A stretch of 64,000 nucleotides of DNA from Salinibacter sp. 10B (GTDB lineage: Bacteria > Bacteroidota > Rhodothermia > Rhodothermales > Salinibacteraceae). The position numbers and the translations under genes were made by a program. Shown here in pieces: positions 40,807 to 54,500 of this stretch (within the stretch, counting starts at the first letter, position 1; each line of letters opens with the position of its first letter). The DNA lies in the NCBI RefSeq assembly GCF_002954405.1, contig NZ_MQWC01000005.1:124001-188000 (forward strand), in the 5' to 3' direction. Under the pieces are notes generated by a model that was not told the origin of the DNA, made no database searches, and saw only the letters and a program-made list of their open reading frames with translations.

Positions 40807-42552
40807 CTACCTAGCAACCGGATTACGGATCGCTCCATGAAAGAGAATTACCCCGGTCTCTCGCTCGGCAATGGCAAAGTAAAACGGCCGGTTCACCTTC
40901 ATTTTCGGAGGAGGGCTCACATCGCGCAAGTCGAAGGACACCGCTGCAGCTTCCGTGCCCCTCTCGTTCACCTTCAGATAGATTTTCTGCTCCACCTCAT
41001 TCAGGAAGAACGGGGTAGGTCGCCCCCGAAGACTGTCGGTACGAGACCCGACATTTATGATGCGTGCAAAATCCGCTTCCCGCGTGAAGGCCTGTTCGAC
41101 GCCGAGCTCTTTGAGCAGCGGGATCAGGTCCAACTTCTTTCGAAGTGCAAATTTCGGCAGGCTAAGTTCGATCTCACTGTTAGTGCTGTCCATTGCGCTG
41201 GTGAGCCGATCCCAGCGCTCCGGTCTAAGCTCACGAACAAACTGGTCAAGGTCCTGCGGCACGAACACATACATCGCCATACGTCCAGTCTCTCCATAGG
41301 GAAGCCGCACCCCTTGGAGGATTAGCTCACCTCCTCGCTTCCGTTGCATGTATGGATATTTTGCCTTCCGTACCATAGTTGGCACCCAAACCGTGTCGGG
41401 CTTTTTCCCTCTCCTCGTGACGATAAAGGGCCTTTGCATGGTGTTTTCCGAATCGAACGGCGCGCTCCATTCTCCGAAGAAGTAAGTCGCATTAGCTAAC
41501 ACTGCTCCATCCTTTGGCCCCTTCTTTATTACTCTTCGAATCTTACCGTTGGTCTTCTCAGTGGCCCACTTGTTGACTTCCTGCGCAAGCTCCTCGCTAT
41601 CGAAGTCTCGCAGATACACCTCTGCATCGAAGTTCTCTTCGAGGGTTCGCCGGTACTCTTCTCGAATTTCAAGGTCAAGGTCGAGGAGACCGGCACTCTT
41701 CATGCTCTTGGTCGGAGAAGCATCGAACCATCCGGCGTTTGCCAAGCGGGTCTCAATGGCAGAGGCGCGACCCACAAGACGCTGTAGAACATGTTGTGGC
41801 TCAGGATGCCTCAGTCGTTGTAGGATTTGACTGGGACCAGAAGCTACAGACTCCCTCAATGTATCTGGCAGGTGGAGCACCTCATAGAGCTCCTGAGCTG
41901 TTCGCCCTCTTGCTCCCTTCGCCGTCATATGCAGAGTCGTTCCCAGGCTGATTGAGGAAAGCAGCGTGTTCGTAGGGGGTTGGCCTTTAGACGCGCTGTC
42001 CGGCTGAACTGTTAGTTCCTTGAGGACATCGAACCCAGTCTGGTTATACTTGGAAGCAAGGGCACGGTCGGCCTGACGGACATCGGCGCTCCTCGATGAA
42101 ACCCAAAAGCGAAATCCCCACGCTCCAGACAGAAGAACTAGGCAGGCCAGTCCTGTAGCCCCGCCGAAGACGACAAGGTCACCGGGAGAAGCGTACCGAG
42201 TTCGGGCCCGCCGATAGGCCACCCAGCCTCCTGAAAAAAAGGCAATGCTACAGACCAGCCTGACAAATGTCCAGGGAAATAGGCCCAGCCCAACCTCATA
42301 CCCGCACTTCCAAAATAACAGAAAGAGGTAGTTGATTATGTAATACAAATACAACCACCAGCCTGATGCCGACTCAGGTCCCACACCTAAGTAGCGGTGC
42401 ATAAACATTATTCCTCCCTCCGCTACTGTTTTGGATACGGCGTAGTAGAGCCCTCCCGCTCCGAAGGTGACACAGAGCAGCGTGAGAACCGCCCAGCCGG
42501 CGAAGACATTGCGACGCCAGGTGAGCCAACTTCTTGAGAAGGGAGCGTCCAT
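40807..42552 (-). CDS. Membrane-anchored serpin
   Basis: A 581-residue protein. About residues 1-160 carry four transmembrane helices (FAGWAVLTLLCVTFGAGGLYYAVS, WWLYLYYIINYLFLLFWK, LVCSIAFFSGGWVAYR, DLVVFGGATGLACLVLLSGAW). A whole serpin domain starts near 190: YNQTGFDVLKELT, NTLLSSISLGTTLHMTAKGARGRTAQELYEVLHL, NATYFFGEWSAPFD, MAMYVFVPQ and IELSLPKFALRKKLDLIPLLKELGVEQAFT. The reactive-loop hinge is VNERGTEAAAVS (EEGTEAAA normally), and the signature RPFYFAIAERETGVILFHGAIRNP is near the end. The loop between hinge and signature is about 5 residues shorter than usual. Bacterial serpins are normally secreted, not anchored by several helices. Confidence 0.9.
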   Translation of the reverse strand: MDAPFSRSWLTWRRNVFAGWAVLTLLCVTFGAGGLYYAVSKTVAEGGIMFMHRYLGVGPESASGWWLYLYYIINYLFLLFWKCGYEVGLGLFPWTFVRLVCSIAFFSGGWVAYRRARTRYASPGDLVVFGGATGLACLVLLSGAWGFRFWVSSRSADVRQADRALASKYNQTGFDVLKELTVQPDSASKGQPPTNTLLSSISLGTTLHMTAKGARGRTAQELYEVLHLPDTLRESVASGPSQILQRLRHPEPQHVLQRLVGRASAIETRLANAGWFDASPTKSMKSAGLLDLDLEIREEYRRTLEENFDAEVYLRDFDSEELAQEVNKWATEKTNGKIRRVIKKGPKDGAVLANATYFFGEWSAPFDSENTMQRPFIVTRRGKKPDTVWVPTMVRKAKYPYMQRKRGGELILQGVRLPYGETGRMAMYVFVPQDLDQFVRELRPERWDRLTSAMDSTNSEIELSLPKFALRKKLDLIPLLKELGVEQAFTREADFARIINVGSRTDSLRGRPTPFFLNEVEQKIYLKVNERGTEAAAVSFDLRDVSPPPKMKVNRPFYFAIAERETGVILFHGAIRNPVAR

Positions 42553-43301: not shown

Positions 43302-45437
43302 ATGTCCGAAACGCCCGATCGTCCACCGATCGCCTTGCCGGAGGACACCCGCCTTCGAGAGGAGTACCAGATCGGCCCAGTCCTTGGGACCGGCAGTTTC
43401 GGCATTACCTACCAGGCCCTAGACAAACACCTCGACACCACCGTTGCGATCAAGGAATACTACCCCCGCCAGATCGCCGGGCGCACTGCCGGAAGCAATA
43501 GCTCAACTTCGAACGAGGATTCCGAGGACAGTCTCGAAGTCCATCCCCACACGAGCCAGGACACTGAAGAATTTAAGCGCGGGCTCCAGAGGTTTATGGA
43601 AGAGGGCCGTACAATCGCACGATTCGACCACCCGAATGTCGTTGACGTCAAGTCCTACTTCGAGCAACACGGGACCGGCTACCTCGTGATGGACTACTAC
43701 GAGGGCCAGTCTCTTGCCGAGGAACTAGCTGAACGCGGAGGACGCCTGCCAGAAAATGAGGCGCTCGGCTACGCGAACGATATCCTCTCAGGGCTGGAAG
43801 CGGTTCACGCCGAGGGCGTTTTGCACCGCGACATCGACCCGCAAAACATCTATCTTTCTTATGAAGAGACCTCTTCTCACAGCCCGAAAGCCGTCCTAAT
43901 CGACTTCGGCGCTGCTCGAGAAGCAATTGGGCAGCAGAGCCAAGAACTGGAAGTAATCCTAAAGCCCGGCTACGCCCCGCCGGAGCAGTATCACCGGAGT
44001 GGCGACTTCGGGCCGCACACTGACATCTACGGGTGCGCTGCGACCCTATATCGGTGCCTGACGGGGCTAAAGCCACCAGAGTCGACCGAACGGACTACGT
44101 CCGACGAACTCGTCCCGCCGCGGGAGATCCGAGAAAAGCTCTCTCTCGAAACGGATCTGGCCGTCCGCAAGGGTCTGGCGCTACGTCCAGAGCAGCGGCC
44201 CGCATCAGCCCAGGAATTTGCCCATCTGCTCGGTTGTACCGAGACGACTGACCGCTCCCACCAAGCCCCAGCGTCTTCTAAAACGGAAGTCCCGTCACCC
44301 AGGAGATCATCTGACACGGATTCGCCCATTCAAGCAGCACATGACGCGTCTGACAATAGTTCCGACCCAAGGGAAAAGGCTCTCTCAGCCCCGACAGCTG
44401 GCGCAGCAACTGGTCCAACTGAATCCCGCGCTACAGACTATGACCCTCCGGTTGGCACACCCGACGGCAAAAGGAGCGCCGCCGCTGAAGAGGTTCCGGC
44501 CTGGAACCTCCTAGGGTTAGCTGCCGCACTGGCCGTGCCGGTCTTGGGAGCGCTCGCGTTTGGCAAGGCGGGACTGGGACAGGTATTTGCCTATTTCGGG
44601 ACGTGGACGCTCGTCTGTGGCGGCCTTGTCGGGCTGTTCCGGCAAGGCGAGCGGCTGATGACGCCAGAAAGTCGGGCAGCAACCGCCGATTGGATCTTGC
44701 AGGAGCAGTTCAGTGAAACGGCCTCGGGCTGGCCTGGGGCGTTCACCGACCTCTTCGACGCGGTGTTCACCAAGGATCACCTCTCCTGGACTTGTTTCCA
44801 GCGGTCGGCCCTTGCCTCCTTCGCAGCGGTGTCACTGCTGGGGATGAGCTTCGTCGGGCTTGGTCTACTCGATCCGCCGCGCTCGGGAAGCGAACTACTC
44901 CCCGCCTTCCTTCTTCTTGCCTCAGTCAACGTGTTTGTCGACTACGCCTCGCTTTTTGAGACGCGCTGGATCTTGGGGCACATGGGAAACACGAATCGCA
45001 CCTCCGCCCACACGGGATACCTTGCGGCCGATCTGGTGCTGACGATTCTCTGTATTGTGCTCCCGGTATCGCTCTTTCAAATTATTAGCTCCGGCGTGTT
45101 AGCGGGGAGCTCGATCCTTTCGTTCCGCTTTTGGGAGCAGTTGGTGGCCTATGTGCTGCTTTTTGGGGAGTGGTTTGTGCAACTGAGCGGGAGGCAAGGA
45201 TCGGAGGCGCCGGCGGTCTTAAGTGTGATGCTGTTCTCGACGCTTTTTACGTCGGTATGGGTGTGGCTCTACGTTGGTTCAGGCCTCCTACTGCGAGCAC
45301 TGCGCCCCCTGTTGGAAGGCCTCGAGTGGCTGAAGCGCGTTCTCGACGTAGAGAATAAGCCGGCTGAAGCAATGGGCTTCCTGCTGGCAACCGTCGCGTC
45401 AGTGGGCTTTGCGCTCAGCGCACCGTTTGCGCTTTAA
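43302..45437 (+). CDS. Membrane Ser/Thr protein kinase, HRD-Lys replaced
   Basis: A 711-residue protein. The kinase domain spans about residues 12-300: glycine-rich loop GTGSFGITYQA, catalytic Lys in VAIKEYYP, an alphaC Glu in FMEEGRTI, DFG as IDFGAARE, and APPEQY. The catalytic loop reads HRDIDPQNI where HRDIKPDN is expected, so the conserved Lys is Asp. From about 305 to 400 is a Ser/Thr/Pro-rich linker. The last 300 residues hold about eight transmembrane helices (VPVLGALAFGKAGLG onward, ending FLLATVASVGFAL). The kinase side faces the cytoplasm. Activity may be altered. Confidence 0.88.
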   Translation: MSETPDRPPIALPEDTRLREEYQIGPVLGTGSFGITYQALDKHLDTTVAIKEYYPRQIAGRTAGSNSSTSNEDSEDSLEVHPHTSQDTEEFKRGLQRFMEEGRTIARFDHPNVVDVKSYFEQHGTGYLVMDYYEGQSLAEELAERGGRLPENEALGYANDILSGLEAVHAEGVLHRDIDPQNIYLSYEETSSHSPKAVLIDFGAAREAIGQQSQELEVILKPGYAPPEQYHRSGDFGPHTDIYGCAATLYRCLTGLKPPESTERTTSDELVPPREIREKLSLETDLAVRKGLALRPEQRPASAQEFAHLLGCTETTDRSHQAPASSKTEVPSPRRSSDTDSPIQAAHDASDNSSDPREKALSAPTAGAATGPTESRATDYDPPVGTPDGKRSAAAEEVPAWNLLGLAAALAVPVLGALAFGKAGLGQVFAYFGTWTLVCGGLVGLFRQGERLMTPESRAATADWILQEQFSETASGWPGAFTDLFDAVFTKDHLSWTCFQRSALASFAAVSLLGMSFVGLGLLDPPRSGSELLPAFLLLASVNVFVDYASLFETRWILGHMGNTNRTSAHTGYLAADLVLTILCIVLPVSLFQIISSGVLAGSSILSFRFWEQLVAYVLLFGEWFVQLSGRQGSEAPAVLSVMLFSTLFTSVWVWLYVGSGLLLRALRPLLEGLEWLKRVLDVENKPAEAMGFLLATVASVGFALSAPFAL

Positions 45438-45610: not shown

Positions 45611-47035
45611 CTAACGTCTGGGGAGGCGTACCTCAAAGGTACTGCCCTCCTCATGGCCTGAACTCCAGGCCGTCACCGCTCCCCCATAGCTTTCCGCAAT
45701 CGCCTCCACGATAGGCAGTCCGAGCCCTCCTCCGTCTGCGCACTGCTCCGCTGCGCCCGTGCGATAGAAGCGCTCGAAGAGCCGGTCGGCGACCTCAGGA
45801 TCAAATCCAATTCCCGAGTCCAACACGCGCAGCACAACGTCGCCTTCCTCCTTCGCCACCTGCACCGTCACCTGCCCCTCGTCAGGCGTGTACTTCAGAG
45901 CATTGCCGAGAAGATGATCAACCACGAGATTGAGGTCCTCCGGAGAGACAAGGGTCTCAATTCCCGAGCCCCCCTCCCACTCGATTGAGGCTGCCTCAGG
46001 ATGGGCCTCTTGGGCTCGCCGAATCCGGTCCTCAACCTGTCGGCTCACGTCAATACGGGTGGGAGACAACTGGCCGTCGCGGGCCTCAATGCGTGAGAGC
46101 GTCATCAGCTCCTCCAAAAGCGACGAGAGGGTTTCGGTATGCCGCCGCACGGTTCGAAGCGCTTCCCGATACTCATTTTCGGATCGGGGATTGCGGAGCG
46201 TCACGTCGAGCTCGCTCTGGATCGCCGTAAGCGGGGTAAACATGTTGTGGGCCGCGTCGGCACGGAAGCGTCGCTCCCGTTGAAGGGAGTCTCTGAGGCG
46301 GCCAATCAGGTCGTTGAACGTCTCGGCCAGATCAGTTAGTTCGTCCTCGACGCCGAAGTCCGTGGGCAGGCTGCCACTGGGCTGTTCTTGCATATCGTTT
46401 GCTGCAGCGGTGAGGGCAGCCACCGGGCGAAGGGCCCGCCGGGCCAACCCGTAGCCGACCAGCATCGCCATCCCGACCCCACCCACAATGCCGATCACGA
46501 GCCATCCCCGCAAGCTGTGTAGCTGACGGTGGATGGGCGACTGCAGCTTCGTCACCTCCAGCCACGCAACGGCCGGCGATTTGGTGTCGAGGGGCACGTA
46601 CAGCGACTTCGCGGCGGTGCTGCCCCACGTCCGCGTGTGCAGTGTGGCCGCCGTCGATTCGGGCAGATCGACCGGCAGTGACGGACGGGCCTGGAACGAC
46701 GAACTTTTCTGTACCACGCGGCCGTCGGCGCCGAGCAGGCGGATGAAGGTGCCAGGCGCGGCCTGAACGGGATGGCTCCCGGCAGCGGACTGGGGCAGCG
46801 ACGCCCCGCCGTGGGCCCGGAGGTGCGTCTGTACGGCGGCGGCCTCCTCGTGGAGCCGCGTCTCCAGATCGTCGTGCAATCCCAGATGAACGCTCACATA
46901 GAGCCCTACGACAAAAAGGGTCAGTAGCACCAGCAGGCTCGTCCCGAACCAGAGCGTAAGACGGGTTGAGATCGACAGCCGGGAAATGAGAGCACGAATA
47001 TTCATCTGAGACGAGCGCATGCTAAGCGGAATCAC
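45611..47035 (-). CDS. Sensor histidine kinase (CusS-like)
   Basis: A 474-residue protein. Two transmembrane helices (LWFGTSLLVLLTLFVVGLYVSV, LVIGIVGGVGMAMLVGYGLARRAL) flank a periplasmic domain of about 130 residues. HAMP is followed by HisKA with FRADAAHNMFTPLTAI. The phospho-His is present, but the residue after it is Asn, where Glu or Asp is usual (HELRTPL). HATPase is complete (VVDHLLGNALKYTPDEG, DSGIGFDPEVADRLFERFYR, GGLGLPIVEAIAE). It overlaps the regulator by 14 bp. It probably controls the metal-efflux operon on the other strand. Confidence 0.9.
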   Translation of the reverse strand: MIPLSMRSSQMNIRALISRLSISTRLTLWFGTSLLVLLTLFVVGLYVSVHLGLHDDLETRLHEEAAAVQTHLRAHGGASLPQSAAGSHPVQAAPGTFIRLLGADGRVVQKSSSFQARPSLPVDLPESTAATLHTRTWGSTAAKSLYVPLDTKSPAVAWLEVTKLQSPIHRQLHSLRGWLVIGIVGGVGMAMLVGYGLARRALRPVAALTAAANDMQEQPSGSLPTDFGVEDELTDLAETFNDLIGRLRDSLQRERRFRADAAHNMFTPLTAIQSELDVTLRNPRSENEYREALRTVRRHTETLSSLLEELMTLSRIEARDGQLSPTRIDVSRQVEDRIRRAQEAHPEAASIEWEGGSGIETLVSPEDLNLVVDHLLGNALKYTPDEGQVTVQVAKEEGDVVLRVLDSGIGFDPEVADRLFERFYRTGAAEQCADGGGLGLPIVEAIAESYGGAVTAWSSGHEEGSTFEVRLPRR

Positions 47036-47819
47036 TCGTGGTGGACGACGCCTCTTGAGGCGGATCGTTGGGCGGGGGCGAGACCGTTAGCCGGTAGCCG
47101 ACGCCTCGCTCTGTCTCAATGGACACCCGGGAGAGGGACGCGCCCGTGATGTCCGCATCTTGAAGCGCCTGTCGGAGGCTCGACACGGTGACGTCAATGG
47201 CGTTGGCCGTCACGTCGTAGGGGGAGCCCCAGACGCGTTCGGCGATGGTCGTCCGGGTCACGACCGTGCCCTTTTGGCGGAGCAAAAGCTCCAGCAGGCG
47301 AAACGCCTTCGGGCGTAGGTCCAGCGACGACGGCCCGTAGCGTACCGTTCGCCGGGCGGTGTCCATGGTGAGCCCCCCCGCCTGCAGGTGGGTTTTCTGA
47401 GTGTCGGGGGACTCGGCGTGGCGGTCGGCCCGTCGGGTGAGGGCCCGGAGACGGGCAAGCAACTCTTCGAAAGAGAAGGGCTTCGTGAGGTAGTCGTCGG
47501 CGCCGGCGTCGAGGCCCGCAACCCGGTGATCCACGTCTTGAAGGGCGGTGAGCATCAGTACGGGGGTGGGGTTTCCTTCATTCCGCAGGCGCTCGATGAG
47601 CGTGCGCCCATCGAGGCCGGGAAGCCGCCAATCGACGATGACAACGTCGTACGATCCCGCAAGTGCCTCGGTGAGTCCTTCCTCTCCCTTCCTCGTCCAG
47701 CTCACGCGGTACCCCTCCTCTTCCAGTCCCTGCTTAATAGGACCAGCCACATCTGCTTCGTCCTCGACAAAGAGGAGCCGCTCGGGAGAGGTTGATGGGC
47801 TTGAGGAATGCATGAGCAA
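47022..47819 (-). CDS. OmpR-type response regulator (CusR-like)
   Basis: 265 residues (start at 47819 or ATG 47813). Receiver: LLFVEDEADVAGPIKQ, phospho-Asp in VVIVDWRLPGLDG, TALQ, YLTKPFSFEELLARLRALTRR. A winged helix follows: YGPSSLDLRPKAFRLLELLLRQKGTVVTRTTIAERVWG, VDVTVSSLRQAL and GVGYRLT. It is the partner of the overlapping kinase. It diverges from the efflux operon and most likely activates it. The gap of about 100 bp to the small frame at 47922 is the probable control region. Confidence 0.92.
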   Translation of the reverse strand: MLMHSSSPSTSPERLLFVEDEADVAGPIKQGLEEEGYRVSWTRKGEEGLTEALAGSYDVVIVDWRLPGLDGRTLIERLRNEGNPTPVLMLTALQDVDHRVAGLDAGADDYLTKPFSFEELLARLRALTRRADRHAESPDTQKTHLQAGGLTMDTARRTVRYGPSSLDLRPKAFRLLELLLRQKGTVVTRTTIAERVWGSPYDVTANAIDVTVSSLRQALQDADITGASLSRVSIETERGVGYRLTVSPPPNDPPQEASSTTSDSA

Positions 47820-47921
47820 AAAGTGAGCCGCGTAAGGGAAGAACCTTTTGGATTTTTCAGGTGACCGACAACCTCCGAACAGCCGCCGTCGCCTATATTC
47901 TTTGACGGATTCACCGACTGT

Positions 47922-48095
47922 TTGATCAGAGCTCTCTCCCTCGTGTGGCCTCTCGCTCTCGGACTGGCGCTTTGGACCGCCCTCCTCTTATGGGTTTGGG
48001 TCCAGGTCGGCCGCTCCCTCGGCGGTTCAGTCCGGAAGGACGAGTTTCGAGACCCGACTACGGCCGGTGAAGGAACGCGACGATCTGTGCAGTAA
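47922..48095 (+). CDS. Possible small membrane protein before the efflux operon
   Basis: A 57-codon frame from TTG at 47922 (or GTG 47943), too short to stand out: ALSLVWPLALGLALWTALLLWVWVQVGRSLGG is one clear transmembrane helix, then a polar tail RKDEFRDPTTAGEGTRR. It ends 39 bp before the TolC ATG. There is no strong ribosome site. It may be a small subunit or a leader peptide for the operon. This is a position- and helix-based guess. Confidence 0.4.
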   Translation: MIRALSLVWPLALGLALWTALLLWVWVQVGRSLGGSVRKDEFRDPTTAGEGTRRSVQ

Positions 48096-48134
48096 CCTTC
48101 CGTCCCTGTACTCATCACGACTCGTTCCCGCAGC

Positions 48135-49469
48135 ATGTCTCGAGTTTCGATCCGCTGCCTTGTGTCCGTCGCCGTCTTGTGCCTGCTCGGCGTGACGGCC
48201 GGCGCACAGCCAGCTCGCATCCAGGCGGAGAGGAGTGCGTCGTCTGCTGGCACACAGGCACCCGGTCTCGACTCCCAAGCGCCGGAGGTGGGATCAGCAG
48301 ACTCGCTTCAGACCGTCGACCTGGAGAAGGCCTTGCGCCTCTTTCGAAATAACAACCTGTCCCTGCAGCGAGCGCAGTCGGAAGCCCGCGCATTTCAAGG
48401 GGAAGCCCGGCAGGTTCAAGCCTACCCGAACCCAACGCTCCAGGCCACACACGAGCCCCTCTGGCAGGGCGACATGCGCCAATCGGAGACGTACCTGAAC
48501 CTCAGCCAGAAGCTGGAGTGGAGCGGCCGCTCCGCTCGAACTGCCTCCGCAAAGCAGGCTGCGCGGGCGGCGCGTGCCCGAACCGCAGTAGACAGTGCCC
48601 GATTGGCCCTGCAGGTGACCGAGGCCTACGTCCAGGCCGCGACCGCCGAGACGCGCCGGCGCCGGTTAGAGCAGGTAACCCGCGTCTTTCGGCAGGCCGA
48701 CTCCAACATGGCCGAGCGACGGAGCGAGGGCGACGCGTCCGGCTACGCCACCCGGCGCATCCGGCTGGAGCGGGCGCGATACGAGCAACGCCTGGCCGCG
48801 GCACGGCTGGAGGCTCAGAGCGCCCGGCGACAGCTCGCGCTTCTGATCCTCCCAGGCGGGGCAGCCTCCGTGACGGCCGAGCCGCTTCCCGACGCAACGC
48901 CACCCCCAATCTCCCGAGACGAGGCCCTTCGCACGGCGCTGCGCACCCGTTCGGAGCTGCGCCACTGGCAGTCGGCGGTGGCGGCGCAAGAAGCCGCCCG
49001 CCGAGCTGCTCGCCGGGAGGCGTGGCCCGATCCGTCCGTCACCGCCGGGTACAAGCGGCAGTCCAACGGCGCGGAAGGCGCCTTTTTCGGCATCGGCATT
49101 TCCCTCCCCTTCTTCGACCGCAATCGGGGGGCCGCGGAAGCCGAATCGGCCCGGCTCCAGGCTGCAGAGACCCAGCAGGTGCTCGCTCGCCGCGAGATCC
49201 GCACCGAGGTGCGCCGCGCCTACGCCGCCTACACGTCTTCCCGCCGCCAATCTCAGCTCCTCCGCGACGAGTTGCTGCGTGGATCCGACGACCTGCTCCG
49301 CATTGCTCGGACTAGCTACGACGAGGGCGAAATGTCGCTCGTCGAACTTCTCGACGCGGCCGACGCGTACCGCGATGCCCGTCTCCGGACCGTAGCCCTT
49401 CGATCTGATCTATGGACCCGATACTTCCGGCTGCTACGCGCGATGGGGCAGCCAATCGCCTTCCCGTAA
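48135..49469 (+). CDS. TolC-type outer-membrane efflux channel (CusC/CzcC-like)
   Basis: A 444-residue protein: signal peptide (LVSVAVLCLLGVTAGAQ), then the two OEP repeats rich in Ala/Arg/Gln heptads. The first contains LEKALRLFRNNNLSLQRAQSEARAF..EARQVQAYPNPTL. The second contains TALRTRSELRHWQSAVAAQEAARRAARREAWPDPSVTAGYKRQSNGAEGAFFGIGISLPFFDRNRG. SYDEGEMSLVELLDAADAYRDAR near the end is typical. It forms the outer-membrane tunnel of the RND system and is the first large gene of the operon. Confidence 0.92.
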   Translation: MSRVSIRCLVSVAVLCLLGVTAGAQPARIQAERSASSAGTQAPGLDSQAPEVGSADSLQTVDLEKALRLFRNNNLSLQRAQSEARAFQGEARQVQAYPNPTLQATHEPLWQGDMRQSETYLNLSQKLEWSGRSARTASAKQAARAARARTAVDSARLALQVTEAYVQAATAETRRRRLEQVTRVFRQADSNMAERRSEGDASGYATRRIRLERARYEQRLAAARLEAQSARRQLALLILPGGAASVTAEPLPDATPPPISRDEALRTALRTRSELRHWQSAVAAQEAARRAARREAWPDPSVTAGYKRQSNGAEGAFFGIGISLPFFDRNRGAAEAESARLQAAETQQVLARREIRTEVRRAYAAYTSSRRQSQLLRDELLRGSDDLLRIARTSYDEGEMSLVELLDAADAYRDARLRTVALRSDLWTRYFRLLRAMGQPIAFP

Positions 49470-49517
49470 TTTGGTTTTCCGTTTCGGTTTCCCATTCAAC
49501 AACGACCACTCTGCGTC

Positions 49518-49841
49518 ATGAACCGCAGCTGGACCTCTTCGATTTTCACCGCTCTTCTTATCCTCGCACTCACCGTTATGCTTCCGGCCTGCGGGGGCGA
49601 CAGTGAGGGCAGCCACTCACACGGTGGCGACTCCCACACGCACGCCGAGGGAAATGAGCACAGCCACGAAAATGGCGACCACGCTCACGAGGGTGATCAC
49701 GCCCACGCGGACATCGCCAAGACCCGCCTGGATACCTCCGGGATGGAGGCCGACAGCACCCATGGGCACGAAATGGAGGGTAATCTCAGTCACGAGGAGG
49801 ACAGTCATTCCCACGGCGGCGAGGAGCATTCACACGAGTAG
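49518..49841 (+). CDS. His-rich lipoprotein, putative metal-binding
   Basis: A 107-residue protein with a lipobox (LPACGGDS) followed by repeated His pairs and triplets: HSHGGDSHTHAEGNEHSHENGDHAHEGDHAHAD, and later HGHEMEGNLSHEEDSHSHGGEEHSHE. About a quarter of the mature chain is His. It likely binds transition metal ions in the periplasm, as a buffer or donor for the pump. No named family is known to me. Position between the channel and fusion-protein genes supports this. Confidence 0.75.
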   Translation: MNRSWTSSIFTALLILALTVMLPACGGDSEGSHSHGGDSHTHAEGNEHSHENGDHAHEGDHAHADIAKTRLDTSGMEADSTHGHEMEGNLSHEEDSHSHGGEEHSHE

Positions 49842-49896
49842 GAGCGCGGCTTCTACTGCCGACACAGGCCCTTTCCGACCCAATTGTTTTCAGTCC

Positions 49897-51483
49897 ATGA
49901 CGCCATTGCTCCGTTTCGCCTTCGCCGTCTTGCTTGGAGCCAGCGTTTTGCTCACTGGATGTGGAGACGAATCGTCCGATGGGCACTCTCACGGCGAGGA
50001 CACCCATAGCCATTCCGGCACGCAAAGCACGGAGGCCCACGATCACGCAAGCGGGATCTCCACGACGGCATGGTCGGAGGCCATCGAGATTTTCGCCGAG
50101 CATCCCGCTATGTTCGCGGGACAGACGAGCGCCCCCTGGGCCGTCCACGTCACCCGACTCGACGGCTCCCGCCCACTCACGGAGGGAGCGCTCACGCTGC
50201 GTTTTCGTCGCCCGGATGGCGCGGCGTACGTACACACGGTCGAGGGGCCGCCGGAACCCGGCATCTTCACGCCTCAGCCCACAATTCCGGAGGCGGGTAC
50301 ATTTCGCCTCTTCGTAATCGTGGAGGGAGTGCAGGTACAGGACACCGTCGAGGTGGGCGACCTCACCGTGTACGAAAGTGCGTCGGCAGCGCCTGCGCCC
50401 GAGGCCCGCTCGGCGGAGATCTCGTACCCGAAGGAGCAGCAGTGGGACGTGTCGTTTGAGGTTGCGGAAGCGCAGGAGCGGTCGATTCAACGATCCATTG
50501 ACGCGTCCGGCATGATTGAGCCGGTCGCGGGGCAGTTTGCGAAGGTCGCGGCCCCGGTGAGCGGCCTCACGCCCGCCCGGGCGAACCTGGACATGCCGGC
50601 TCCCGGCGATCGGGTGCGCGAAGGACAGACGCTGGCGATCCTCAGCCCGTCGGGGGGTGACGGCTCGTACGCCGACCTGAAGGGGCGCGTCGAACGGCTG
50701 GAGCGGGAGGTGCGCCGGGCCGAGCGGCTGATAGAGGCAGAAGCGATTCCCCGAAAGCGGCTCGTGGAGGCGCGCCACGACCTGACGCTGGCTCGGGCAG
50801 CCCTCAATTCGATGGGACAGGCTGGTGAAAACGCTGCGTCACAGATGGCCTCGGCTTCCGCCGAGCCGACTCGGGACAGCACCGGCTTCAACTACCACCT
50901 GACGGCCCCGATTAGCGGCCGAGTCCAGGAGCGTCACCTGGCGCCGGGAAGCCGCGTGGGAGTAGGAACGGTGCTCTACACGATCGTCGATCCCAGCCGC
51001 GTCTGGATCCGCCTTCGCGTACCCGCCGAACACGCGGCCGCCACGAGCCGAGCCACCGGCGCCGTGTTCACCGTTGAGGGCAGCAGCCAAGCATACGAGG
51101 CGAGCCAGGTCGTCTCCACGGGCGCCTCCATTGACACAGACACGCGGACGCTTCCCGTCCGCCTCGAAGCCCCCAACCCGAACGGCGCGCTCAAGATCGG
51201 CATGATGGCCGACGCCCAGCTTCTTCTTGAAGAGACGCAGTCCGGCGTCGCCCTCCCCAATGAGGCCATCCAGACCGAGGACGGCCGGCCGGTGGCCTAC
51301 GTGCAGACCGGCGGCGAATCGTTCGAGCGGCGGCCCCTTGAGCTCGGCCCCACCGACGGGCAGTACACCCTCGTCGAGCGGGGCATCCAAGCGGGCGAAC
51401 ACGTAGTCACCGACGGGGCCTACCAGGTCTACCTCGCCTCCCTGAACACCAGCCAGATGGCCGGGCACGGGCACCCGCACTGA
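49897..51483 (+). CDS. Membrane-fusion protein (CusB/CzcB-like) with His-rich lead and extra domain
   Basis: 528 residues from the ATG at 49897; an earlier in-frame start overlaps the His-rich gene and is unlikely. Lipobox LLTGCGDES, then a short His-rich stretch (GHSHGEDTHSHSG). A beta-domain of about 110 residues resembles YtkA-like domains (TLRFRRPDGAAYVHTVEGPPEPGIFTP). The HlyD/CusB body follows (SIDASGMIEPVAGQFAKVAAPVSGL, coiled coil near EREVRRAERLIEAEAIPRKRLVEARHDL, then GRVQERHLAPGSRV). It links RND pump and channel. Confidence 0.9.
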   Translation: MTPLLRFAFAVLLGASVLLTGCGDESSDGHSHGEDTHSHSGTQSTEAHDHASGISTTAWSEAIEIFAEHPAMFAGQTSAPWAVHVTRLDGSRPLTEGALTLRFRRPDGAAYVHTVEGPPEPGIFTPQPTIPEAGTFRLFVIVEGVQVQDTVEVGDLTVYESASAAPAPEARSAEISYPKEQQWDVSFEVAEAQERSIQRSIDASGMIEPVAGQFAKVAAPVSGLTPARANLDMPAPGDRVREGQTLAILSPSGGDGSYADLKGRVERLEREVRRAERLIEAEAIPRKRLVEARHDLTLARAALNSMGQAGENAASQMASASAEPTRDSTGFNYHLTAPISGRVQERHLAPGSRVGVGTVLYTIVDPSRVWIRLRVPAEHAAATSRATGAVFTVEGSSQAYEASQVVSTGASIDTDTRTLPVRLEAPNPNGALKIGMMADAQLLLEETQSGVALPNEAIQTEDGRPVAYVQTGGESFERRPLELGPTDGQYTLVERGIQAGEHVVTDGAYQVYLASLNTSQMAGHGHPH

Positions 51484-51551
51484 TCGGAGTTCGGAGTGCG
51501 GAACTCGGAGTGGGAATCGGCTCATCCTTTTCCATCCACGCAGGCAGCAAG

Positions 51552-54500
51552 ATGCTTGATCGGACGATTCAGTGGGCGCTTACGAACCGAGTGACGACGC
51601 TCGTCGGCGCCATGCTTCTACTGGCGGCGGGCGGGTACGCAGCGCTGACAATGCCGGTGGACGTGTTTCCGGACCTGACGGCCCCGCGCGTGACGGTGAT
51701 CACCGAGTCGCACGGGATGGCCCCGGAGGAGGTGGAAAAGCTGGTGACCTACCCGATCGAGACGGCTGTCAACGGGGCGGCAAGCGTGCGGCGCGTACGG
51801 TCCAGCTCCGCGCAGGGCTACTCCATCGTGTGGGTCGAGTTCGAGTGGGGCACCGACATCTATCAGGCCCGCCAGATCGTGAGCGAAAAGCTCCAGCTCG
51901 TTGGGGGGCAGTTGCCGGACGGGGTGGACGCCCCCGTGATGGCTCCAATTACGTCCATCATGGGCGAAATCCTGCTGGTTGGTCTCACCAGTGACGATCA
52001 TTCGATGCGCGAGGTACGGACGGCTGCCGACCGCGTCGTGCGCCGCCGGCTGCTGGCCGTGGATGGCGTCGCGCAGGTGATTCCCCACGGCGGCGAGGTG
52101 AAGGCCTATCAGGTGATCGTCGATCAGGAGCGCCTGCGCACGCTCGGACTCTCGCTGTCGGCGGTGATGGACGCGGCGGAAGGATCGAACGAGAACGCGG
52201 CGGGGGGCGTCTATCAGAAAGACGGGCGCGAGGTGCTCATCCGCGGGATCGGGCGCACCAACGAGATTCAGGAGATCGGGGCCACGGTGGTGACGAGCCG
52301 TGACGGGGCGCCGATCCGGCTTCGGGACGTGGCGGAAGTCAAGATAGGCACCCAGCGGCCCCGCCTCGGCACCGGATCGGTCAACGGCGAATCGGCGGTC
52401 ATCGTCTCCATCCAGAAGCAGCCCGGGGCCAATACGCTCGAACTCACGGAGCGGGTCTCCGGCGAACTCGACCAAATTGAGCAGCAGCTCCCTACTGGGA
52501 TGGAGGTGAACCGCTCGATCTTCCGGCAGGCCGACTTTATCTCCCTCGCGGTCAGCAACGTGATCGAGGCGCTGCGGGACGGGGCGCTCCTCGTCATTCT
52601 GATCTTGTTCCTCTTCCTATGGAACGTGCGGACGACGGCGATTTCGATTCTCGCCATTCCGCTCTCGCTGTCCGTGGCGATGGTTGTGATGTACGGCCTC
52701 GGCATCACGATCAACACCATGACGCTCGGGGGCCTGGCGATTGCCATCGGGGCGCTCGTGGACGACGCGATTATCGACGTGGAAAATGTCTTCCGGCGGC
52801 TCAAAGAAAATGCCCAAGCGCCTCCCGAAGAGCAAAAGAACATCCTGCGGGTCGTGTACGAGGCGTCGATGGAGGTGCGGGGCCCCATCCTAAACGCCAC
52901 GCTCATCATCAGCGTGGTCTTCGTTCCCCTCTTCTTCCTCTCCGGCGTGCAGGGACGGCTTCTGCAGCCCCTGGGGCTGGCCTACATCGTGGCCATTCTC
53001 GCGTCGCTATTCGTGGCCGTGACGGTGACGCCGGTGCTCTGCTACTACCTGCTCCCGCAGTCCTCTACAGTCCAAGAGGACGAGGAGACGTGGCTGGTAC
53101 GGAAGCTGCACAGCACCTACCGCGCCACCCTGGACTGGGTGCTGGGGCACTCCCGGTTTGTGCTTGGGGCCGCTGCCCTCCTTCTGGCCGTCACGCTCGC
53201 CACCCTCCCCTTCCTCGGGCGCGGCTTCCTGCCGGACTTTCAAGAGGGAACGCTCGTCATCAGTGCCGTCACGGCGCCGGGGACGAGCCTGCAGGCCTCC
53301 ACCGACATCGCCCAGAACATCGAGGAGCGGCTGCTGGGACACCCGGCCGTCGAGGCCACCTCCCGCCGCACCGGCCGCGCTGAACTGAGCGCTCACGCAC
53401 AGGGCGCCAATGGATCCGAGATTGACGTGCGGGTGGACCTTTCGGAAATGGAAATGAGCGAGGTCACCGCCGACGTACGGGCCCGCCTTTCCTCGATTCC
53501 AGGTACCAACATCACGATCGGCCAGCCCATTGGGCACCGCATCGACCACATGCTATCGGGCACGCGAACGGACATTGCCCTGAAAATCTTCGGCCCGGAC
53601 CTCTACCAGCTGCGCGACTTGGCGGAGGAGATTCGGGGGGCTGCCCAGGGCACGCCGGGCCTCGTCGACCTGTCCGTGGAGCAGCAGGCCGATGTCTCCC
53701 AACTCCGCCTCTATGCGAGGCGGAAGGAGATGGCGAAATACGGCGTCACCCCCGGCCGCTTGAATCACGCCATCGAGGCGCTGGTGGGCGGAGAAGCCAT
53801 CTCGCAAGTGCGCGAGGGACAACAGACCTTCAATCTCACCGTGCGGCTCGACTCCGCCCGCCGGGCCGGTGCAGAGTCCATCCGCAACGTGCTCATTGAC
53901 ACGCCAGCCGGCCCGAAGGTGCCGGTCTCGCGCCTCGCCACCGTGCAGCACGAGCGCGGCCCCAACACCATCAGCCGCGAGGACGTGCAGCGCAAGATCG
54001 TGGTCTCGGCCAACATCCGCGGACGGGACGTGGGAAGCGTTGTGGCGGGCCTACAGCAACGCATCGGGAATCAGGTCGAGCTTCCGGAAAACTACTACTA
54101 CGAGGTTGGCGGGCAGTACGAAAACGCCCGGCAGGCCTCTCGGCGAATCGGGTGGCTTTCTCTCGTCGCACTCTTGGTCGTCTTCCTCCTTCTCTATCAG
54201 GAGTTTGGCAGTGCCCGGGCCGCGGCGCTCGTGCTCGTCAACCTGCCGCTCGCCCTCACCGGCGGGGTGGCAGCCCTCTTTCTCTTCCTCGGCGGCACGC
54301 TCGACATCGCGGCGATGGTCGGATTTGTGACCCTCTTCGGCATAGCCGTGCGCAACGGTATCCTCCTCGTAAGCCACTATATCAACCTGCTCAAGGAGGG
54401 CAAATCGCTCCGCGAGGCCGTCGTGCAGGGATCGCTGGAGCGACTCAATCCCATTTTGATGACGGCCCTCACGGCGGGCCTCGCACTCATCCCACTGGCG

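Follow-up and report, generated by a model that had tools for sequence, protein, structure and literature searches.

The closest described relatives of the gene analysed here are bacterial serpins with solved structures and the serpins of its own order. According to the available text of PMC8233489, most prokaryotic serpins carry N-terminal transport peptides, and some are classed as membrane anchored from the type of their N-terminal signal peptide, with no multi-helix anchor described in that text; the available text of PMC10090351 has many prokaryotic serpins as intracellular. Miropin from Tannerella forsythia (PDB 5ncs; Group T in the available part of PMC8233489) shares the bacterial serpin fold with our protein (Foldseek E 7.3e-28), but its sequence match is confined to residues 296-575, and no polytopic part is present in its solved chain (375 residues). 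By sequence, a conserpin variant is the PDB entry that matches best (E 4.4e-41, residues 188-578), and chloropin 8gxv is matched at E 1.8e-27; the matched conserpin and chloropin chains, of 375-379 residues, leave no room for a further membrane part.

Within the order, 20 of 24 serpin loci could be aligned, with start codons that we chose; each of these has an N-terminus of the signal type, with a cysteine at the lipobox position. The loci left out are two cut by contig ends (L009, L018), one with no in-frame start (L012) and one remnant (L026). These lipoprotein-type serpins, for example G003 C1:2920359-2921453 and that shared by G008 and a Salinivenus MAG (L139), also carry an inhibitory-type hinge, are apparently membrane-tethered and occur, as here, as one match per genome. 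The view that bacterial serpins are normally secreted, from which the original prediction started, therefore needs nuance, since tethering to the membrane is the norm in this order and only a polytopic anchor appears new. The order serpins are 27-32% identical to our protein over the whole alignment and 31-42% in local matches, and they differ from it in having a single lipobox-like signal in place of several helices, a neutral to acidic domain and no insertions.

One gene for a serpin domain and a membrane part

The window, by which we mean the whole stretch analysed (64,000 nucleotides; 1-64000 = C5:124001-188000), encodes a serpin domain and a predicted multi-helix membrane part in one gene (Table 1). 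The open frame around this gene is 603 codons long and has no start codon upstream of the ATG, and four hydrophobic segments stand ahead of the serpin domain in that same frame. Pfam Serpin (PF00079) matches at E 3.6e-78 and 263.8 bits, against a cut-off of 27, and the match spans profile positions 4-370 of 370, so that similarity extends over the full domain. It is the sole Pfam domain in the 581-residue protein and the only serpin match in this genome. Together with the hinge, ERGTEAAAVS, the match bears out the claim of a full serpin, as the continuous frame does that of helices joined to it.

Table 1. Features of the serpin locus, in window positions
Feature	Position	Strand	Size, basis or remark
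Polytopic serpin gene	40807..42552	(-)	581 aa, ATG start
N-terminal membrane part, residues 1-150	42103..42552	(-)	No convincing relative
Hydrophobic segment 1, residues 17-38	42439..42504	(-)	Hydropathy scales
Hydrophobic segment 2, residues 64-82, Trp/Tyr-rich	42307..42363	(-)	Marginal on insertion-type scale; AF2 helix 62-86
Hydrophobic segment 3, residues 89-111, with Pro93 and Arg98, then RRARTR	42220..42288	(-)	AF2 helix 92-118, low confidence
Hydrophobic segment 4, residues 125-147	42112..42180	(-)	AF2 helix only 132-144, low confidence
Serpin domain, residues 170-578	40819..42045	(-)	Pfam PF00079; AF2 and Foldseek
Region with two insertions, residues 228-300	41653..41871	(-)	Alignment with relatives
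Hinge and reactive centre loop, residues 530-557 (ERGTEAAAVSFDLRDVSPPPKMKVNRPF)	40882..40965	(-)	Sequence; alignment with relatives
Membrane ORF, 136 aa	42758-43168	(+)	Between serpin and kinase; weak family matches only
Kinase	43302-45437	(+)	Divergent from serpin

The AlphaFold2 (AF2) model, built from an alignment of 50 sequences that included 49 of the 80 named loci described below (L134 was excluded, as it ends at a contig end), assigns pLDDT >=90 to 281 of the 581 residues, in blocks within the serpin domain. Foldseek matches this model to solved serpins, in both native and cleaved forms, from E 5.4e-29; 415 PDB chains are matched at E <=0.001, and the 50 matches listed are all serpins, with target-normalised TM-scores of 0.75-0.89, as expected of a serpin fold.

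When codon scores are compared over six frames, the gene's own frame is best for residues 1-60 and is not best in windows 91-150, 211-270, 331-390 and 361-420, the last three of which lie inside the serpin domain. A search of the 205 bases 5' of the ATG on the same strand found no promoter of the sigma-70 type, with a consensus that may not apply to this host. The possibility that the helices belong to a separate gene, two genes being read as one, was rejected because there is one open frame.

Topology of the membrane part

The four hydrophobic segments have Kyte-Doolittle 19-residue peaks of 1.77, 1.12, 1.68 and 2.06, in order, and all four contain windows that the Wimley-White octanol scale rates as favourable. 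A stricter, insertion-type scale ranks segments 1 and 4 highest and has segment 3 outside its 25 best windows; segments 1 and 4 are thus clear on all three scales used and 2 and 3 weaker on one. AF2 gives most of the membrane part a pLDDT below 70, residues 61-80 excepted, so a helix bundle is not confidently predicted.

Under the positive-inside rule, a strict four-helix model ends in a 6:6 tie of Lys+Arg residues, whereas each of four three-helix variants places the serpin outside (8:5, 7:6, 5:3 and 9:3). With four helices, at most one of the two basic stretches, WRR ahead of segment 1 and RRARTR behind segment 3, can be inside. Export is also the local default for the domain, since the 20 aligned order relatives have exported, lipoprotein-type N-termini. 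From the charge counts and this family precedent we judge that the serpin domain is probably on the periplasmic side; the original proposal that it faces the periplasm or the surface survives as a leaning, which the three-helix variants favour and the four-helix tie holds back.

What counts against a periplasmic serpin is a protein of four true helices whose WRR-flanked N-terminus is inside, which would put the serpin on the cytoplasmic face, where it would inhibit or sense an intracellular protease. Such an arrangement fits the number of hydrophobic segments, the three basic residues before segment 1 and the equal four-helix charge counts, but it would leave RRARTR outside and departs both from the three-helix variants and from the exported appearance of the aligned relatives, and we consider it rather unlikely. 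An internal start, for example at Met49 or Met51, would by contrast give a smaller anchor of three helices with the N-terminus inside and the serpin outside. Although that protein would satisfy the positive-inside rule at 5:3, it would forgo residues 1-60, for which the own frame has the best codon score, and segment 1, one of the two clearest helices, which makes it improbable.

The lipobox signal that is the only N-terminal helix of the order serpins has no equivalent among these several segments: Cys83 aligns under the lipobox cysteine, yet it is positioned after segment 2 and not after a signal peptide.

Reactive loop and body of the serpin

Inhibitory serpins share a P17-P8 hinge consensus of E, G, T/S and small residues, and have 17 residues from P17 to P1. 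The hinge here conforms to that consensus and to the pattern of its relatives, E-x-G-T-E-A-A-A-V-S/T. The loop that follows had been described as short, which is so only mildly, because the 26 residues from P15 to RPF, a length found in 3 of the 65 matched serpins including this one, compare with 27-33 in 57 of the 65. (The pattern matched 65 of 70 serpins; lengths of 20 and 22, in three rows, arise where it stops at an internal PV.) Val545-Ser546 aligns on the P1-P1' of the relatives, which leaves 16 residues from P17 to P1 and a P side one residue shorter; with Ser546 as P1 the count is 17 and the next residue is Pro. Either way the geometry counts against an inhibitor, as a short P side or as a Ser-Pro alternative that would be a poor site, though a shorter P side is also a feature of C1-inhibitor and alpha-2-antiplasmin. 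In the model the reactive loop has pLDDT <50 at residues 537-548, compatible with an exposed loop.

Residues of 28 columns invariant among 50 serpins are kept here, for example N354, F358, W362, G532-T533-E534 and P556-F557. The shutter histidine is replaced by glutamine, a residue also found at this position in 1 other of 21 order serpins and 8 others of 50, and likewise in PAI-1. Two insertions, which we take to lie near the helix D region, enlarge the body: residues 228-271 number 44 against 30-34 in relatives, and residues 272-299 number 28 against 14-18. The net charge of the domain is +9, whereas that of 20 order serpins ranges from -1 to -50, and among the 49 other serpins of a wider set only L138 (+25) is more basic. 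Its PF00079 score in the phylum survey, 264.6 bits, lies below the 317-402 bits of the other full-length serpins in the phylum survey described below, and in the class survey no full-length serpin scores lower, the lower rows being fragments.

Two MAGs labelled Bacteroidetes and Syntrophomonadaceae (L127 and L131) hold closely related serpins with one N-terminal hydrophobic peak, a long stretch before the serpin domain (an open frame of ~210-220 residues) and net charges of -60 and -56.

The explanation that we favour, at about an even chance, is an inner-membrane suicide inhibitor that faces the periplasm and protects envelope proteins, encoded on a megaplasmid-like replicon; its topology, cleavage site, targets and protective role are what we infer. 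An N-terminal bundle of three or four helices would hold the protein in the cytoplasmic membrane with the serpin body in the periplasm. A serine protease would cut the exposed loop, most likely after Val545 and before Ser546, upon which the cut loop would insert into sheet A and the protease would be covalently trapped, as in the ordinary serpin mechanism. The trapped protease would then be tied to the inner membrane, and neither to a lipid anchor nor free in solution, and the role of the protein may be to shield the envelope proteins of its own cell from elastase- or subtilisin-like enzymes, whether endogenous or foreign. Against this explanation stand, besides the four-helix charge tie and the loop geometry, the divergence of the domain, seen in its low profile score and long tree branch, its odd net charge and the promoter search described above.

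Loop cleavage or ligand binding might instead alter the body of a non-inhibitory, sensory serpin and the change be passed to the membrane bundle. The close spacing of the two parts, with eight residues between residue 147 and a model helix from 156 (at low confidence there), and the two insertions in the body would suit such a sensor; the intact inhibitory hinge would not, nor have we found a dedicated signalling partner, the kinase not being linked to the serpin (see below), and we give the idea only a small chance. A related idea, that the very short linker transmits the cleavage rearrangement to the membrane and makes the protein a one-shot transmembrane protease sensor or gate and not a plain inhibitor, seems to us very improbable.

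Distribution, neighbourhood and origin

The original prediction called for a search for other membrane-fused serpins, and the outcome agrees with its expectation of an unusual protein: no second polytopic serpin was found in 394 genomes of the phylum, 244 of the class and 76 judged named loci, some of which have N-termini cut by contig ends. In the phylum survey, where frame length was the criterion, PF00079 is matched in 72 genomes, this one included; one of the other full-length serpins has an open frame of 719 codons, and the frames of the rest span 409-479. In the class survey 99 genomes have a match, again with this one included. Frames of 484, 488, 508 and 534 codons there are too short for the polytopic architecture (the N-termini of the last two were inspected), and both surveys contain serpins that are incomplete or at contig ends (e.g. 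G010, G013, G174, G443, G447, G454, G475, G510 and G511). Other phyla were sampled through 80 named loci, the best of at least 562, and through plasmid and phage collections. Of these loci, 76 could be judged, L078, L094, L140 and L145 being unplaceable because of tandem matches; none has more than two hydrophobic peaks before the serpin and six have two, which look like a signal peptide plus upstream reading, against three for our protein at a like threshold.

Four other frames of the class survey, of 551, 559, 604 and 719 codons (G005, G045, G046 and G044, respectively), are long enough for a polytopic serpin. They were rejected as such, as they hold lipoprotein-type serpins that start well downstream in the frame.

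Searches with the membrane part yielded no convincing relative. Among the 393 other genomes of the phylum, 76 have matches at E <=1, the best at E 0.0047 (query residues 64-139); the best E is 0.12 in 12 congeners, 0.1 in PHROGs and 0.32 against neighbouring membrane proteins, and NCBIfam has no match. Exact-pattern scans of genome and viral contig collections with the whole protein gave no confirmed homologue, and among plasmid and phage collections, where 102 and 2 records, respectively, match the serpin domain, none covers 80% of the query. Two unannotated gut records labelled 'Bacteriophage sp.' (MT835777.1 and MT835510.1) encode serpin-like proteins at 25-29% identity and may be bacterial contigs labelled as phage.

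A literature search returned no description of a transmembrane serpin, or of a bacterial periplasmic serpin with transmembrane helices, and phrases such as 'membrane-anchored serpin' led, as judged from the listed entries, to mammalian topics only. Membrane anchoring of serpins is already known; the polytopic anchor appears to be new within these searches.

A membrane kinase had been noted next to the serpin. The kinase is there, on the opposite strand and divergent, but the 136-residue membrane ORF intervenes, and the suggested check for co-occurrence of serpin and kinase gave no support for a link. Relatives of the kinase turn up in 36 of 41 genomes, a count that includes this genome, which has nine matches with the kinase itself among them. 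The two closest full-length relatives (54% and 52%) stand near each other in G009, a genome 83% complete in which no serpin was matched, where they lie among non-serpin genes; judged on these two, there is no conserved serpin-kinase neighbourhood. None of the 12 other genomes of the genus matches the DNA that separates the serpin from the kinase. From these comparisons the kinase does not appear to be linked to the serpin, and nothing found supports a shared function.

In G009 the two full-length relatives (L060 6660-13613) are interleaved with three other genes, presumably DUF3047-like, and a kinase-DUF3047 pairing is possible there. The kinase of our locus also matches PADLOC defence-kinase models (mad6, E 1.6e-52; PD-T4-6, E 4.5e-50). 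These matches probably reflect general kinase similarity, since the NCBIfam MADS6 model scores 136.7 bits against a cut-off of 460.

The serpin's contig, C5, is 287 kb long, another contig, C4, being 4.32 Mb, and it is probably a megaplasmid, because both Rep3 matches of the genome fall on it (C5:265657-268117) among 10 contigs. From ~46072 to 54000, the end of the query, the window is 81% identical, in four pieces, to the Salinibacter ruber plasmids pSR60 (NZ_CP030371.1) and NZ_CP030363.1. The matching block comprises a sensor kinase, a response regulator, TolC and RND efflux genes, beyond which pSR60 has a mercuric transporter gene; the serpin lies outside the match.

The lipoprotein-type serpin of G003 is flanked by what we take, from reading the sequences, to be HDAC-like and acetyl-CoA-carboxylase-alpha-like genes. 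The matches of these flanking genes in our genome are on C4, 1.4 kb apart, and enclose no serpin, so the C5 serpin is not the G003-type serpin in place. A serpin remnant in another congener (G010:C1:1298590-1298772, L026), in which only the C-terminal 62 profile positions match, suggests that the lipoprotein-type serpin decays in some lineages. A quick tree of 70 rows joins our serpin to one Verrucomicrobiota and one Acidobacteriota row by a very long branch (length 2.24; the median is 0.54); in a tree of 31 of those rows its position is different and unsupported, and grouping it in a clade with six family rows is not rejected (p-AU 0.128). The L139 and G008:C160 serpins are identical in the tree.

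These data bear on whether the gene is a young, perhaps drifting plasmid fusion that by now has little or no function, made from a serpin without its former export signal and a membrane ORF acquired upstream. Its presence in one genome, its long branch, the congener's serpin locus standing empty of a serpin here and the remnant in G010 would all be compatible with such a history, as would its low codon score and its GC3 of 0.60, both set against the same seven neighbours (GC3 0.69-0.80; the 136-residue ORF has 0.55 and the kinase 0.67). Yet all 581 codons stay open, residues at positions that do not vary among 50 serpins are conserved and the two parts of the gene are of like composition, and we therefore think this history distinctly unlikely.

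We conclude that the gene is real and its architecture, a serpin on a predicted polytopic anchor, unusual, and that its product, known from one genome, is most likely a periplasm-facing, inner-membrane suicide inhibitor. Serpins change shape drastically when cut; one carried on several helices would fix the protease that it traps in the inner membrane, and its change of shape could be coupled to the membrane. If confirmed, the protein would add to signal-peptide, lipid-anchored and cytosolic serpins a further type of anchor, known from one genome and carried on a plasmid-like replicon.
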